This document shows, piece after piece, positions 5,241-63,611 of a DNA stretch of 64,000 nucleotides. Source of the DNA: a bacterium. GTDB lineage: Bacteria > Desulfobacterota > Deferrisomatia > Deferrisomatales > Deferrisomataceae. The notes under the pieces were generated by a model. It was not told the origin of the DNA, did not search any database, and was given only the letters and a program-made list of their open reading frames with translations. The position numbers were made by a program, and so were the translations under genes. The stretch covers positions 124,001 to 188,000 of the forward strand of contig JALUTY010000078.1 of the NCBI GenBank assembly GCA_027021615.1, written 5' to 3'. Numbering within the stretch: position 1 is the stretch's first letter; each line of letters begins with the position of its first letter.

Positions 5241-5262
5241 TCTCGAGTTGCTAAGACCTGCA

Positions 5263-5510
5263 AACGTATTGCCAGGGTGCGGGGTGGGGGCCTGGTGGAG
5301 CGCCGGGTGCGGCCCCTTAGCTCGCCGCGCCCTCCGAACGTCCGGGTCCCCTCCGGATTCCGTGGGTTCCGCTATCGTGGCCTGGATCGACGCACAAGCG
5401 GCGGCATGAGAAGGCGCGGCGATCGGATGCCGCACTCGCGCCCGGCCGGAACCAGGCCCCCACCCCGCACTCCCCAAGGGGAAGGGACACGGGTCTGGCA
5501 ATACTTTCGT
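5263..5510. repeat. Long imperfect palindrome, family B copy 1
   Basis: This fills the gap between the protease and the next exported protein. The outer ends AACGTATTGCCAG (5263-5275) and CTGGCAATACTTTCGT (5495-5510) are inverted. Inside, the GTGCGGGGTGGGGGCCTGGT arm is repeated in inverse orientation near 5420-5470, separated by a short asymmetric centre. The core GGAGCGCCGGG-type sequence recurs in the palindromes near 15851, 28153, 44217, 45565, 50161 and 63173. No credible gene lies in it. Confidence 0.75.
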
Positions 5511-5551
5511 TGGGATTGGTGCCTTGGCGTGAGGCACGAGGAGCAACGGAC

Positions 5552-13265: not shown

Positions 13266-13428
13266 CGAGGCACCCCCGGCCCTTCTGGCTTCGTCGCGAG
13301 CTGGAGGCCGGTCCCACGGATGGGAGAAGTTACTCCGGAAGCCGCAACTGGCTGGCCAGCGGGCCGAAGCCCGAAGGAGGAGAACCATCGAGCCCGATAC
13401 GTCTTCGCAACCGATCCGCCGGCGCCTG

Positions 13429-13950
13429 ATGCGCCGTCTGTGGATCTGGGCGCTGGTGGTGGCCCTGGGAACGGCCGTGGGGATGTGGGTGGGGGCTCGG
13501 CGGCGCCAGGCCGAACGAGAGGCCGCGCTGGAGCTGGCCCGTCGGGTCGTGGGGCAAGTGGCCTCGGCCCGCGACGCCCACGGCCGCGGCGAGCCGAAGC
13601 AGGCCCAGCAGGTCCTGGAGCGGGCTCGCAAGGCCCTGGAGGAGGCCGAGGGGGGGACCCGCACCTCCCTCTACGCCACCGTTCTGACCGAGCTGGCCGC
13701 CATGGGCGCGGCTGCTGGAGCCGACCCCCAGCTCTGCCGCGGCTTGCTGGCCCGGGCCTGGGAGGTCCCAGACCTGGGTGCGGATCTGAAGGTGCGCATT
13801 GCCCGGGACGCCGGGGCGCTGGCGGCCGCTGCCGGCGACCGCGAGGCAGCCCGGCTGTGGTACGGGCGGGTTCTGGAGCTCATTCCGGACGACGCCCGGG
13901 CGAAGCGGGTGCTTGCCACCTTGGATCTTCTCGAACGGTCGGGCCCGTGA
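13429..13950 (+). CDS. Membrane-anchored TPR-like protein
   Basis: 173 residues from ATG 13429. One N-terminal membrane helix (LWIWALVVALGTAVGMWVG) is followed by an Ala/Arg-rich helical region. The C-terminal helix pair AARLWYGRVLELIPDDARAK looks like a TPR. ATG 13429 has no ribosome site. An ideal AAGGAGG at 13374-13380 instead points to an in-frame ATC at 13387, so initiation at a non-standard codon is possible (14 extra residues). The stop overlaps the GTG of the next gene (GTGA), so the two are coupled. Function is unknown; it is probably a partner of the DUF294 protein. Confidence 0.65.
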   Translation: MRRLWIWALVVALGTAVGMWVGARRRQAEREAALELARRVVGQVASARDAHGRGEPKQAQQVLERARKALEEAEGGTRTSLYATVLTELAAMGAAAGADPQLCRGLLARAWEVPDLGADLKVRIARDAGALAAAAGDREAARLWYGRVLELIPDDARAKRVLATLDLLERSGP

Positions 13951-15851
13951 CCGATCTGGAGCTTCTCCTGCAGGCTGCCCCCGCCTTGACCCGCCTACCG
14001 GGCGAGGCCCTGGACGTGCTCGGCCGGGCCCTCACCCGCCGTACCCTCGGCGTAGGCGAGTACCTGTTCCGCCAGGGGGAGGGGCCCCCGGGCCGGGTGT
14101 ACCACCTGGTCTCAGCCACCGTGGAGATCCGGGTGGGGGTGGGGGACGAGGAGCAGGTGGTGAGCGTTTCGGGCCCAGGGGACCTTGTGGGGTGGCTGTC
14201 GGTGTTCACCCCCGACCCGTTCCCGGCATCGGCCAGGGTGGCGGCGCCGGGCGATGTCCTCGAGGTTCCCACCGAGGTGCTCCGGGAGCTGGCGGCCCGG
14301 TATCCCGAGGTGGGGTCCTTGCTGGCGGCCTCCATGGCCCGCCGGCTCCAGGACCTGTTCCGCCGGGTTCGGGAGGAAGCCCGGGGCGACGCGCTGGTGG
14401 GGCGGGCCGATGCGGCCGCGTTCCGGCGGCGGGTGGTGGAGGTGATGTCGGCGCCGCCGGTCCGGGTGACCCCTCTGGATTCGGTAAGACAGGCCGCCCA
14501 GGCCATGGCCGGACGCCGGGCCGGGTCGGCGTTGGTGGAGGAGGCCGGGGCCCTGCGCGGCATCCTCACCGAGAAGGACCTGGTTGGCAAGGTTCTGGCC
14601 CGGGGCAGCGACCCGGACGCCACGCCGGTGGAGGCCGTAATGTCGACTCCGGTGATCCGGGTGGCGCCGGACACCTATGTGTACAAGGCCCTCGGCGTGA
14701 TGAGCCGGCACCGCATCCGGCACCTGCCGGTCGCCGAGGGCGAACGGGTGCTGGGGGTGGTGTCCATGCGGGCGCTCCTGCCCCTGGTCACTCGGGGCAC
14801 CCTGGAGCTGGTCGAGTCGATCGAGGCGGCCAAGACCCTGGACGACCTGCGCCGGGCCCGGACCGAGGCTGCGCGGGTGTGCGTGGACCTGGTGCACGAG
14901 GGGCTTGCCGGCGACGAGGTGGCCCGGGCCCTGTCCCATCTTTACCGCGACATCCACCGCCGGGCCCTGGAGCTCACGATCGGAAAGCTGGAGGAGGAAG
15001 GGTGGGGTCGGCCGCCGGTGCGGTTCTGCTTCATCGTGATGGGGAGCCACGGCCGGTATGAGAGCCATATGGCCACCGACCAGGACCACGGCATGATCTT
15101 GGCCGACTATCCCGCTCACGAGTGGGGTTGCGTGGAGCCGTACTTCATGGAGCTGGGCCACCGGGTGTCGGCCGCGCTCGAGGCCGTGGGGTTCCCGGCC
15201 TGCCGGGGTCACGTGATGAGCCGGAACCCCGTGTGGCGCAAGCCCGCGGGCGAGTGGCGGCGGCAGGTGCAGGGCTGGTTCGACCGGCCCGGCTCCGTTG
15301 CCGTGCGGTACTCCACCCTGTTCTACGACTTCGCGCCGATCTGGGGGGACGCCACCCTGGCCCACGAGCTCCGGCGGTTCCTACTGCAGGGGGTTCGCCG
15401 GAACTTTCACCTGCTCCAGAGCCTGTACGGAGAGGCGTCCCGACACCGGGTTCCGCTGACCTGGTTCAAGACATTCGTGACCGAGCGCAAGGGCCCCCAC
15501 CGGGGCGAGCTGGATCTCAAGCGCTCGGGGCTCCTGTTCGTGGCCGAGTGCGCCCGGATCCTGGCCCTGCGCCACGGGGTGGGCGAGACCTCGACCATCG
15601 GCCGGCTCCAGGCCCTGGCCGACCGGGGTGCCGTCCCGGCCGAGGAGGCCGAGTTCGTGCAGACCGCGTACCGGACGATGCTGTTCTTCCTGCTCCGCGC
15701 CCAGGCTCGCGCCCTGGCCGGGGGCCGGCCGCCCGACACCTACCTGAACCCCTCGGCCCGGCCGATCCAGGAGCGCTACCTGCTGCGCCACGCCCTGGAG
15801 GCCGCCGGCCGGCTCCAGGACCTGGTGCGCGCGAGCTTCGGGGAGATCTGA
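13947..15851 (+). CDS. cNMP-binding/CBS-pair/DUF294 nucleotidyltransferase-like signalling protein
   Basis: 634 residues from GTG 13947. Domains in order are: a cyclic-nucleotide-binding-like barrel (about 15-130), two CBS motifs (about 160-285, VMSAPPVRVTPLDSV and VMSTPVIRVAPDTYV), a DUF294 nucleotidyltransferase-like domain with GSHGRYESHMATDQDHGMI near 365-385, and the DUF294 C-terminal helical domain. The GS and D-x-D residues of the nucleotidyltransferase fold are kept. Proteins of this type sit beside acetate symporters, CrbS-type kinases and DnaQ-like exonucleases, exactly as here. The substrate is unknown, and uridylylation or adenylylation of a partner is only a suggestion. The final A of the TGA is the first base of a palindromic element. 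Confidence 0.85.
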   Translation: MTDLELLLQAAPALTRLPGEALDVLGRALTRRTLGVGEYLFRQGEGPPGRVYHLVSATVEIRVGVGDEEQVVSVSGPGDLVGWLSVFTPDPFPASARVAAPGDVLEVPTEVLRELAARYPEVGSLLAASMARRLQDLFRRVREEARGDALVGRADAAAFRRRVVEVMSAPPVRVTPLDSVRQAAQAMAGRRAGSALVEEAGALRGILTEKDLVGKVLARGSDPDATPVEAVMSTPVIRVAPDTYVYKALGVMSRHRIRHLPVAEGERVLGVVSMRALLPLVTRGTLELVESIEAAKTLDDLRRARTEAARVCVDLVHEGLAGDEVARALSHLYRDIHRRALELTIGKLEEEGWGRPPVRFCFIVMGSHGRYESHMATDQDHGMILADYPAHEWGCVEPYFMELGHRVSAALEAVGFPACRGHVMSRNPVWRKPAGEWRRQVQGWFDRPGSVAVRYSTLFYDFAPIWGDATLAHELRRFLLQGVRRNFHLLQSLYGEASRHRVPLTWFKTFVTERKGPHRGELDLKRSGLLFVAECARILALRHGVGETSTIGRLQALADRGAVPAEEAEFVQTAYRTMLFFLLRAQARALAGGRPPDTYLNPSARPIQERYLLRHALEAAGRLQDLVRASFGEI

Positions 15852-16113
15852 TACCAAGTTGCGTTCAATCCAAGAGATCCCTCCGGGGGGGGCCGGGGCA
15901 AGGGACCTGCGATTCAGGTGTCAGGGGCCAGAGGTCAGAAGGCAGAAGTTCGGGTAGAGTCCAAAAGCTGTGTGGAGCTTTACAACAAAGTGGAAGTTTT
16001 TTCTGTCCACTGTCCTCTGAATTCTGGCCCCTGATACGGCCACGCCCGGCGCTCCACCAGGCCCCTTGCCCCGCCGGTTCAGGGGTTTGATGGCTTTGAA
16101 CGCAACTTGGTAT
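15851..16113. repeat. Palindromic element, family A copy 1, with perfect 18-bp terminal inverted repeats
   Basis: The terminal repeats ATACCAAGTTGCGTTCAA (15851-15868) and its exact inverse (16096-16113) enclose 263 bp. Inner arms GGGGCAAGGGACCTG (left) and CAGGCCCCTTGCCCC (right) are also inverted. The centre holds a different palindrome (family C, 15921-16034). The element begins on the last base of the DUF294 stop codon. There is no transposase, no credible ORF and no obvious target duplication. Confidence 0.85.
15921..16034. repeat. Family C palindrome nested inside family A
   Basis: TCAGGGGCCAGAGGTCAGA (15921-15939) pairs with TCTGAATTCTGGCCCCTGA (16016-16034). The right end, including CTGAATTCTGGCCCCTGA, recurs at 63726-63743. 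The interior is AT-richer than the surroundings (TTTACAACAAAGTGGAAG), which suggests a different origin. Confidence 0.7.
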
Positions 16114-16146
16114 GACGGGCCGGAGGCGCAAGATGGAAGAGGCACC

Positions 16147-16788
16147 GTGGAACTGAAGGTGATCGAGATCTTCTCCAGCATCCAAGGCGAGTCCCACTGG
16201 GCGGGGTACCCCTGCACCTTCGTGCGGCTGGCCGGGTGCAACCTGCGCTGCTCCTACTGCGACACCGCCTACGCCTGGGAAGGGGGAACCCCCATGGGGG
16301 TGGAGGAGGTGCTCCGGGTCGTGGACCGGGAGGGGCAGGGCACGGTGGAGGTCACCGGCGGGGAGCCGCTTTGCCAGCCGGGGGCGCCGGCCCTGCTGGA
16401 GGCCCTGCTCGAGACCGGCCGGCGGGTGCTGCTCGAGACCAACGGCAGCCTGCCCCTGGAGCCCGTACCCCCTGGGGTGCACATCGTGATGGACCTGAAG
16501 ACCCCGGGATCGGGGATGGTGGATCGGAACCGATGGGAGAACCTGGAGCGGCTCGGCCCGGGGGACGAGATCAAGGTGGTGTGCGCCGACCGGGCCGACT
16601 ACGACTGGGCCGTGGCCGAGCTCGCCCGCCGAAACCTGTGGGGCCGGGTGCGGGTGAGCCTGTCGCCCGTGTGGGGCCGCCTCGACCCGGCCGAACTGGC
16701 GCGTTGGATGCTCGCCGACCGCCTGGACGCCCGCCTCCAGGTGCAGCTCCACCGCATCCTGTGGCCCGGCCGGGACCGGGGGGTGTGA
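16147..16788 (+). CDS. queE: 7-carboxy-7-deazaguanine synthase (radical SAM)
   Basis: 213 residues from GTG 16147, the usual length of QueE. The radical SAM cluster CNLRCSYC uses Cys31, Cys35 and Cys38. VTGGEPLCQ and LLETNGSLPL match the SAM-binding and substrate motifs. The enzyme converts 6-carboxy-tetrahydropterin to 7-carboxy-7-deazaguanine, the step before QueC in queuosine biosynthesis; queC lies at 37036. Upstream in-frame ATG codons fall inside the repeat element and were rejected because the family starts at LKVIEIFSSIQGES. Confidence 0.92.
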   Translation: MELKVIEIFSSIQGESHWAGYPCTFVRLAGCNLRCSYCDTAYAWEGGTPMGVEEVLRVVDREGQGTVEVTGGEPLCQPGAPALLEALLETGRRVLLETNGSLPLEPVPPGVHIVMDLKTPGSGMVDRNRWENLERLGPGDEIKVVCADRADYDWAVAELARRNLWGRVRVSLSPVWGRLDPAELARWMLADRLDARLQVQLHRILWPGRDRGV

Positions 16789-17931: not shown

Positions 17932-17948
17932 GCTCGATCCTCCAAGTT

Positions 17949-18042
17949 CGGTCGTTGGTCGTCAGTCGTTGGTCTGGGGCCTTCGGCCCGCTGGGCAGCG
18001 CAAAGGCTGGAAAGCTGGAAGGCTAGGAGGCTAGAAGGCTTG
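17949..18042. repeat. 7-bp array, GGGCCTTCGGCCC hairpin and 8-bp array
   Basis: Heptamers CGGTCGT TGGTCGT CAGTCGT TGGTCTG (17949-17976) run into GGGGCCTTCGGCCC (17976-17989). Octamers AAGGCTGG AAAGCTGG AAGGCTAG GAGGCTAG AAGGCTTG follow (18003-18042). The octamer is the reverse complement of the type at 9990-10029. Confidence 0.75.
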
Positions 18043-18171
18043 AAAATCCTCCGGATTCCCGCACGTTCTAGGCACCACCACACCTCTTCGCCTTCACCTG
18101 ACACACGGTCCGGGGGGCAGGGGGCATGGCGAGGCGGCCGCCCGCCTCACGGACCGAGGTCACTAAGATTT

Positions 18172-45564: not shown

Positions 45565-45830
45565 ACTAAGGCCTACGGAGGTCTTGCCGGACGCGGGTGG
45601 GGGACTGGCTCCGGCCGGGCGCGAGTGCGGCACCCTTTTCGCCGCGCCTTCGCATGCCGTTGTCAGCCCGGTAGGCCGGGGCGCCGGTGGCGGAGGTTCC
45701 TGAACTTCCAAAGCGATCCAAGCCGGGTGAGGGCGCGGCGACGTAAGGGGCCGCGCCCGGCTCTCCACCAGCCCCCCACCCGCTGGTTCCTTTGTGAACG
45801 CCGGGGATCTGACAATAGTTCCGTTGGTAT
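45565..45830. repeat. Long imperfect palindrome, family B copy 2
   Basis: Left arm GCGGGTGGGGGACTGGCTCC and right arm CCAGCCCCCCACCCGC are inverted, with GGCCGGGCGCGAGTGCGGCA opposite GGCCGCGCCCGGCTCTCC. The right end CTGACAATAGTTCCGTTGG resembles that of copy 1 (5495-5515). Confidence 0.7.
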
Positions 45831-45834
45831 TAGT

Positions 45835-46056
45835 ATGCCAATTTGCGATCAAGATGGGCTCATAGAGGGGCGATTTGAGGGCCGTCGGTCCTCCGCCGGA
45901 AAAGACGGCCTCGCCGAAGCCGCTACGGCTCGGTTTGCTGCGGCGCGTGAGAGCACGCGCCGCGGGCGCTCCCTTGCGCCGAGCGGCTCGAACGGCTCGG
46001 CCGTAGCGCTGCGGGCCAACGGCCCCCAAATCGCTGGCTTCGAATGCGACTTGGTA
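45835..46056. repeat. Palindromic element, family A divergent copy
   Basis: The ends ATGCCAATTTGCGATCAA (45835-45852) and TTCGAATGCGACTTGGTA (46039-46056) are degenerate family A termini. The interior differs: it holds its own inverted repeat built on CGGCTCGGTTTGCTGCGG and AGCGGCTCGAACGGCTCGG. Confidence 0.6.
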
Positions 46057-46129
46057 GAGGTCGAAGCGGAAAAGGGAGGCAAGTGTAGAGGGGGGGAGCG
46101 GGTCCGTGCAATGGAAGGAGGCGCACGAC

Positions 46130-50091: not shown

Positions 50092-50160
50092 CCGGCTCCT
50101 CTCCGTAACGGGCAACGCTAGACGATGGGTGAAAAAACTGTCAAGCGCTGGAGCGGGCTG

Positions 50161-50407
50161 ATACCGAGTTGCGTTCAAACCGAGAGTTCTCGTGGGGCGG
50201 GGCAAAGGACCTGCCTCCGACCGTGCGCGAAGCCGGGCATTGAGCTTCACCGCGCAGGCACGAAACCGAAGAGCCGGGTCCACGGCAGCGCGTTGGCGTC
50301 CGAACCTTCCGAGGTCCGGGCGTCAGAAGCGCTGTGAGGAGCCGCACCCGGTTCTCCGGCAAGTCCCTTACCCCTCGGGTCCAATGGCTTTGAGTGCAAC
50401 TTGGTAT
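50161..50407. repeat. Palindromic element, family A copy 3
   Basis: Termini ATACCGAGTTGCGTTCAA (50161-50178) and TTGAGTGCAACTTGGTAT (50390-50407) match as inverted repeats at 15 of 18 positions. Inner arms GGGGCAAAGGACCTGCC and GGCAAGTCCCTTACCCC are inverted. The right end coincides with the last base of the deoxynucleoside kinase stop codon (TAA). Confidence 0.82.
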
Positions 50408-51018
50408 TACAGGTACCGCTCGATCGTCTCCAGCACCTCCAGCCGGTCCACCAGGTCGTGGATGAAGTCCAGGCGGTCCGCATCGATCACGAGGACCGGC
50501 GAGAGGTCGTAGCGACGGATCCAGGACCGGTACAGCCGGTTGAGGTCTCGGAGGTAGCCGGGGTCCACGGCCTGTTCGTAGTCCCGACCACGGCGGCGGA
50601 TGCGCCGGCGGATCGTGGACATGCTCGACTTCAGGTAGATCAGCAGGTCCGGCGGGTTGAGGCTGGCGCGGATGGTCTCGTACAGCAGGCGGTACGCTTG
50701 GTAGTCCCGGCCGCTCAGGTGCCCCCGCCGGTGTAGGTTCTCGGCGAAAACCTCGGCGTCCTCGTAGATGGTGCGGTCCTGGATCACGGTCTGGGGGCAG
50801 GCGTCCAGCTCCTGGTGCACCCGGAACTTGAGGGTGAGGAAGTACACCTGGGAGTGGAACGCCCACCGGTCCATGTTCCGGTAGAAGTCGGCCAAGTAGG
50901 GGTTCTCGGCGTTGCGCTCGTAGAACGGCCGGATGTGTGGGTACCGGCGGCACAGGAACTCCACCAGGCTGGACTTGCCGCTGCCCATGTTGCCCGCCAC
51001 CGCGATGTACTTGACCAT
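50407..51018 (-). CDS. Deoxynucleoside kinase
   Basis: 203 residues from ATG 51018. P-loop AGNMGSGKSSL (about 8-18), FYERNAENPYL (Glu of the substrate site), QDRTIYEDAEVF (DRS-like motif) and YLKSSMSTIRRRIRRRGRDYE (lid). It phosphorylates deoxynucleosides in salvage; whether dA/dG or dC is not clear. A strong terminator separates it from the upstream receiver gene. Confidence 0.9.
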   Translation of the reverse strand: MVKYIAVAGNMGSGKSSLVEFLCRRYPHIRPFYERNAENPYLADFYRNMDRWAFHSQVYFLTLKFRVHQELDACPQTVIQDRTIYEDAEVFAENLHRRGHLSGRDYQAYRLLYETIRASLNPPDLLIYLKSSMSTIRRRIRRRGRDYEQAVDPGYLRDLNRLYRSWIRRYDLSPVLVIDADRLDFIHDLVDRLEVLETIERYL

Positions 51019-63164: not shown

Positions 63165-63172
63165 GCCCATTG

Positions 63173-63436
63173 ATACCGAGTTGCCATCCATAGGATACCC
63201 AGCCGGGGGCGGGGCAAGGGACCTGCCTCCGGCCGGGCGCGAAGCCAGGCTTGAGATTCGCCGCGCAGGCATGGGGCGGGGGAGCTGGCTTCATGACAAC
63301 CCGTTGGAATCCGAACCCTTTCGCAGTCCAGACGCCGGAGGCACTGCGCGGCGAGCGAAGGGGCCGCGCCCGGCTCTCCGACAGGACCCTTGCCCCTCTG
63401 GGCAGGGGGGCAATAGATTTGAACGCGACTTGGTAT
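63173..63436. repeat. Palindromic element, family A copy 4
   Basis: Termini ATACCGAGTTGC (63173-63184) and GCGACTTGGTAT (63425-63436) are inverted. Arms GGGGCAAGGGACCTGCC and GGACCCTTGCCCC, and GGCCGGGCGCGAAGC against GGGGCCGCGCCCGG, are also inverted. 264 bp, with no gene. Confidence 0.8.
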
Positions 63437-63611
63437 GACCGCGCCGTTCGGCGAGATCCCCGTTCCCCGGGCGCGGGGCTGGTGGTCCGGTTCTTGCTTG
63501 CGTTCCGCTTCCCCGGGCCGTGACGGTTGTCAGCTCCAGTAGACCGCGAGGCGGCCTGTTTGCGAGGAAGTAACTTGAACCGATCCCCGCACAGTTTCCG
63601 CGGTGGGGCAT

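Follow-up and report, generated by a model that had tools for sequence, protein, structure and literature searches.

Why should long palindromes stand exactly on the stop codons of genes in a GC-rich genome? The question is raised by four copies of one repeat, designated family A, in the window, namely the whole 64,000-nucleotide stretch of DNA analysed here, for which a first-pass annotation had offered two readings, a regulatory repeat at gene 3' ends and a MITE. The places and the ends given there for the four copies were confirmed, with the ends of copy 2 being diverged, and so were the contacts with stop codons: copy 1 starts on the final A of the upstream plus-strand gene's TGA (..ASFGEI*), and copy 3 finishes on the stop, TAA, of a minus-strand gene (..IERYL*). 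The annotation was also correct that the window copies contain no transposase. It was mistaken in stating that there is no target duplication, as a 3-bp TNA direct repeat flanks the element. Herein, we conclude that the family A copies are very probably MITEs moved in trans by a DD31E IS630 transposase with duplication of TNA, insertions at stops surviving because they are silent. The features of the window are listed in Table 1.

Table 1. Family A copies, their target duplications and neighbouring features (positions in the window; G002, complete genome of the same genus)
Feature	Position	Strand	Remarks
ORF upstream of copy 1	13320..15851	+	CBS-domain/nucleotidyltransferase-like, by eye from sequence; its TGA stop doubles as the left duplication of copy 1; probably starts further downstream than given
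Copy 1, left target duplication	15849..15851	+	TGA, native stop of the upstream gene
Family A MITE (probable), copy 1	15852..16112	.	TACCAAGTTGC...GCAACTTGGTA; long hairpin; core of the TCAGGGGCCAGAG... type
Copy 1, right target duplication	16113..16115	+	TGA
ORF with downstream queE-like radical-SAM gene	16066..16788	+	Name by eye
Family B palindrome	45566..45833	.	CTAAGGCC...GGTATTAG; TA flanks; adjoins the left end of family A copy 2
Family A, copy 2	45835..46057	.	223-bp subfamily; diverged ends (ATGCC/CTACC); decayed duplication
Copy 3, left duplication	50159-50161		TGA
Family A, copy 3	50162..50406	.	Same site occupied in G002
Copy 3, right duplication	50407-50409		TTA, the stop codon TAA of the adjacent minus-strand gene
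Copy 4, left duplication	63171-63173		TGA
Family A, copy 4	63174..63435	.	Intergenic, not flush with a stop; common to G002
Copy 4, right duplication	63436-63438		TGA

Family A is short, non-coding and multi-copy, and its members carry terminal inverted repeats. In the window, ATACCRAGTTGC (at most 2 mismatches) was matched 13 times, compared with 2.2 matches expected by shuffling. Further copies were sought throughout the source genome (G000), a 4.25-Mb draft of 71% GC, in which ATACCRAGTTGCGTTCAA (at most 3 mismatches) gave 130 terminal sites and the reversed control gave 3. Since these sites are split about equally between the strands, approximately 60-70 palindromic copies are present, and the stretches around 70 site clusters yielded 47 well-paired, non-overlapping copies. 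The element proper reads TACC(A/G)AGTTGC...GCAACT(T/C)GGTA and lies inside the direct TNA repeat, and its length ranges from approximately 65 to 350 bp, with classes near 75, 223, 263 and 284 bp. The right end of copy 1 falls within the nominal 5' extension of the ORF at 16066..16788, and the queE-like gene probably starts at approximately 16148.

The common ends enclose several different palindromic cores, and core sequence also occurs outside family A, including in family B. Core palindromes at window positions 5277-5470, 15894-16072 and 63213-63396 are common to repeat families with different ends, as if exchanged between shells. Family B itself, observed at 5251-5519 and 45566-45833, is a second MITE-like family with CTAAGACCTGCAAACGTATTGCC ends and TA flanks in most copies, and its probable driver is an IS630 element present in three copies in G002 (L243, L245 and L247) with similar ends. 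A further dispersed repeat (GGTCGTTGGTCGTCAGTCGTTGGTC..., GGCTGGAAAGCTGGAAGGCT...) lies at 17944-18128 and has many copies in congeners.

The target duplication had been missed because it is hidden within the palindrome, and reading the element as ATACC...GGTAT leaves no apparent direct repeat. In the source genome, the base just outside the ends is identical on both sides in 35 of 48 copies, whereas 15.9 are expected from base composition, and this identity was reached in 0 of 100,000 permutations; the same base is complementary in only 6/48. T at -2 and A at +2 were each found in 44/48; the target is roughly CTNAG. Similarly, the middle flank base is identical in 38 of 46 copies from other phyla (12.7 expected by shuffling). 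About one quarter of the duplications in the source genome are no longer identical, and that of copy 2 is among the decayed ones.

The comparison with G002, the complete genome of the same genus, revealed occupied and empty alleles of the same sites, with TNA in single copy in the empty ones; a draft congener, G001, is 81% complete. The flanks in the empty alleles overlap by exactly 3 bp in G002 L228:9347-9567 against source-genome locus L065 and in G002 L322:2440-2535 against L082, and the comparison of L082:2386-2712 with G002, together with further cases, agrees with one copy of these 3 bp; at some other empty sites, a few point differences obscure the picture. The alternative of a TA duplication with CC..GG ends was rejected, because the overlap in the empty alleles is exactly 3 bp, not 2. 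At two loci (...YTVAADFGY* and ...TRLDR*), the gene of the empty allele ends at the TGA that is duplicated in the filled allele, indicating that the native stop was the insertion target. Copy 2 of the window is not present in G002, and the few insertions by which the two species differ show that family A moved after their split. The first-pass annotation had proposed that copies with target duplications would support a MITE, and such copies have been found, together with empty sites in a relative. As a separate observation, the comparison of source-genome loci L071 and L058 with the G002 2871150 region and L232:16691, where a 282- or 344-bp copy in one species faces a 76- or 75-bp copy in the other, points to the in-place loss or gain of a palindrome core.

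The position of the copies relative to genes was then compared with several null models, using the calls of a home-made gene finder based on a simple codon model. On one strand or the other, any TNA trinucleotide reads TAA or TGA, and an insertion at TGA or TAA recreates the stop; the flush position thus follows from the TNA target. In the source genome, the duplication is the stop of a called gene in 22/47 copies, and none of the 47 lies inside a gene; in G002, 29 of 49 copies are flush with a stop. When both species were combined, 39 of 75 distinct insertions were flush, exceeding the 19-24% expected from all non-coding TNA sites and the context-weighted expectation of 22.1%. At or within 100 bp of a gene 3' end, 38/47 copies were observed compared with 45.7% expected (p 8e-7). 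Within this 3'-side set, however, flush copies (22/38) are no more frequent than expected (48%; p 0.16), and in hosts of lower GC content, in which TNA is common, they number only 2/34 (p 0.17). For comparison, 0 of 7 family B repeats, mostly with TA flanks, were flush, in a small sample. As the bias is towards the 3' side in general and is not stop-specific, it is sufficiently explained by the loss of insertions from genes and from regions upstream of them.

It had been suggested that many copies at gene 3' ends would speak for a regulatory repeat. In such a reading, the hairpin behind the stop would have been co-opted to terminate transcription or to stabilise the mRNA, and selection would keep it at gene ends. 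The count itself was borne out, with most copies on the 3' side of genes and 22 flush with a stop, and copy 1 folds to -141.7 kcal/mol with a z of -7.9, but the count does not discriminate between the two readings. The arm complementarity of flush copies is no better than that of other copies (p 0.76 and 0.45), giving no signal of selection for hairpin integrity at stops, and one insertion site can hold a long copy in one species and a short copy in the other (282 vs 76 bp and 344 vs 75 bp). Since flush copies are not better preserved and the length varies at one site, there is no sign of a selected RNA role. Moreover, flush copies are rare in the lower-GC hosts, and no Rfam match was found in the window. 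Judged from the sequences, no support for a regulatory function of family A was found, and we regard such a function as unlikely.

The same counts bear on the suggestion of active targeting, in which the transposase would favour stop codons or gene 3' ends over and above its preference for TNA. The excess of flush insertions in the two species over the share of non-coding TNA sites would agree with active targeting, but this excess disappears within the 3'-side set and in the lower-GC hosts, and purifying selection explains the remainder. Stop-codon targeting was therefore rejected as a candidate, several null models and the lower-GC hosts showing a 3'-side bias that is not stop-specific, and we consider it very unlikely. 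In a bolder form, the DD31E IS630 group would have evolved a TNA target that makes stops a preferred silent landing place, with the MITEs of GC-rich hosts actively seeking 3' ends; this scenario, too, is distinctly improbable.

The source of the transposase was examined by scanning one genome per species for the 19-bp family A terminus. Among the matches listed were cyanobacteria (Nostoc, Scytonema, Tolypothrix and others), Bacteroidota, Ignavibacteria, Acidobacteria, Nitrospirota, Schekmanbacteria, many Deltaproteobacteria and others; the same ends with TNA repeats are present in many phyla, and some of the most similar named copies belong to deltaproteobacterial MAGs. Elements with the same ends that carry their own transposase were also found. 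In an Ottowia MAG (L138:1800-2928), a 1129-bp element between family A ends, with TCA repeats on both sides, encloses a two-frame IS630 transposase (DDE_3, HTH_33/29, NCBIfam transpos_IS630), and the same arrangement is observed on an Acaryochloris plasmid (L285:1883-3024). Related ends with the same transposase group occur on plasmids of Polaromonas, Deinococcus, Enterobacter, Methylobacterium, Paracoccus and others, and 10 of the 13 autonomous relatives with TAC(C) ends, as counted by eye, are flanked by identical TNA repeats. Most of these transposase loci share the DD31E spacing, namely 31 residues between the second D and the E; the same regular expression gave a 36-residue gap (DD36E) in a distant IS630 transposase, L260. 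Two side observations concern these elements. The reading frame of the Ottowia transposase ends beyond the element, its last codons crossing the terminal repeat (L138:1772-2329), while several of its relatives appear to stop earlier, at a TAG. On the Enterobacter resistance plasmid pN260-3 (L289), the interval between blaIMP-1 and aac(6')-Il holds a DD31E-group IS630 element flanked on either side by TAA.

Closer to the source genome, 38 relatives were scanned for the ends, and the two non-congeners with many terminal sites (G017 and G036) also carry the DD31E transposase group, which in several contigs has family A-like ends next to it. Against this association, the group is also present in G025, G030 and G046 with no count of family A ends. 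No DD31E transposase was found in the source draft genome, in the draft G001 or in the complete G002. The resident IS630 elements of G002 were considered as drivers and rejected, since their seven DDE_3 genes belong to two other types with different ends. The L243 type has a 36-residue spacing by manual count; the other (L248-L251) has TTATTAACCCGGCGATTAAATAGGCGC ends and no match to family A. A driver in the same genome, not found for family A, is not a strict requirement for a MITE. In this genus, family A is either an orphan or has a driver that the two drafts lack, and we infer from other taxa that the DD31E IS630 group moved the copies.

Two other transposon origins were weighed. Some groups of the IS5 superfamily duplicate TNA, and the TNA duplication, which taken alone would fit, first suggested that the MITEs derive from an IS5-superfamily element instead of IS630. 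The source genome has four DDE_Tnp_1 (PF01609) matches, but no listed family A terminal site lies near them, and this genome showed no IS5-type transposase bearing these ends; moreover, every transposase found between family A ends is of the IS630/DDE_3 type. This origin was rejected and is highly improbable. Finally, the extragenic position and high copy number might recall REP/BIME-type palindromes, which a RAYT (Y1) transposase mobilises with no target duplication, but this origin is extremely improbable in view of the target duplication, the elements with a DDE-type transposase, and the element size of approximately 65-350 bp with long terminal repeats.

Taken as MITEs of IS630 type, the family A copies most probably arose as follows. 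A transposase of the DD31E subgroup would recognise, in trans, the TACC(A/G)AGTTGC ends of short non-coding, cut-down transposons and insert them into a TNA target, best CTNAG, whereupon those 3 bp would be duplicated. As TGA and TAA are TNA sequences, the duplication would restore the stop next to the gene, and the insertion, being silent, would persist, in contrast to those within genes or upstream regions, which would be lost. The long hairpin would consist of the inverted-repeat ends and palindromic cores, some of the latter shared with other repeat families. Such regeneration of TGA or TAA, leaving the host gene untouched, would explain why long palindromes stand exactly on stops in a GC-rich genome, and it links the gene-less palindromes of many bacterial phyla to one IS630 subgroup. 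The results also call for caution, as a palindrome can conceal a target duplication, which is then recorded as absent.

The duplication usually given for IS630-type elements is TA (PMC2229807, PMC8533490), and the 3-bp TNA rule is therefore atypical. A literature search met the terminal sequence only in papers that seem unrelated, and no paper was found that combines IS630, TNA and target site, both of which are weak evidence of novelty. If the TNA rule has not already been catalogued, the IS630 annotation of this subgroup would need to be corrected from TA to TNA.

Several known systems resemble family A. The cyanobacterial MITEs, Anabaena type II and Nezha, are likewise short and palindromic, being likened here by description only; 147 'type II' MITEs are reported in Anabaena sp. 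90, and they too have no matching resident element (PMC3542288). The RUP repeats of Streptococcus pneumoniae, of which there are approximately 100 copies, are also short and intergenic, and are thought to be moved by the IS630-Spn1 transposase via shared ends (PMC2229807). However, RUP uses TA targets, whereas family A duplicates 3-bp TNA, has different ends and has no driver found in the same genome. The IS630 family (NCBIfam NF033545) is represented by the transposase on elements with family A ends, and relatives on Azospirillum plasmids are annotated as ISAli2-like; the elements with family A ends combine DD31E with TNA, in contrast to the wider IS630 group, which is described as duplicating TA (PMC8533490). 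The TP36/Zator group of IS630-Tc1-mariner, in which Zator is said to derive from bacterial TP36, belongs to the same wider superfamily as the family A transposase group (PMC7386202). The family A transposases are nevertheless of the DD31E type, and the longer spacing of 36 residues is found in the G002-resident IS630 elements with other ends.
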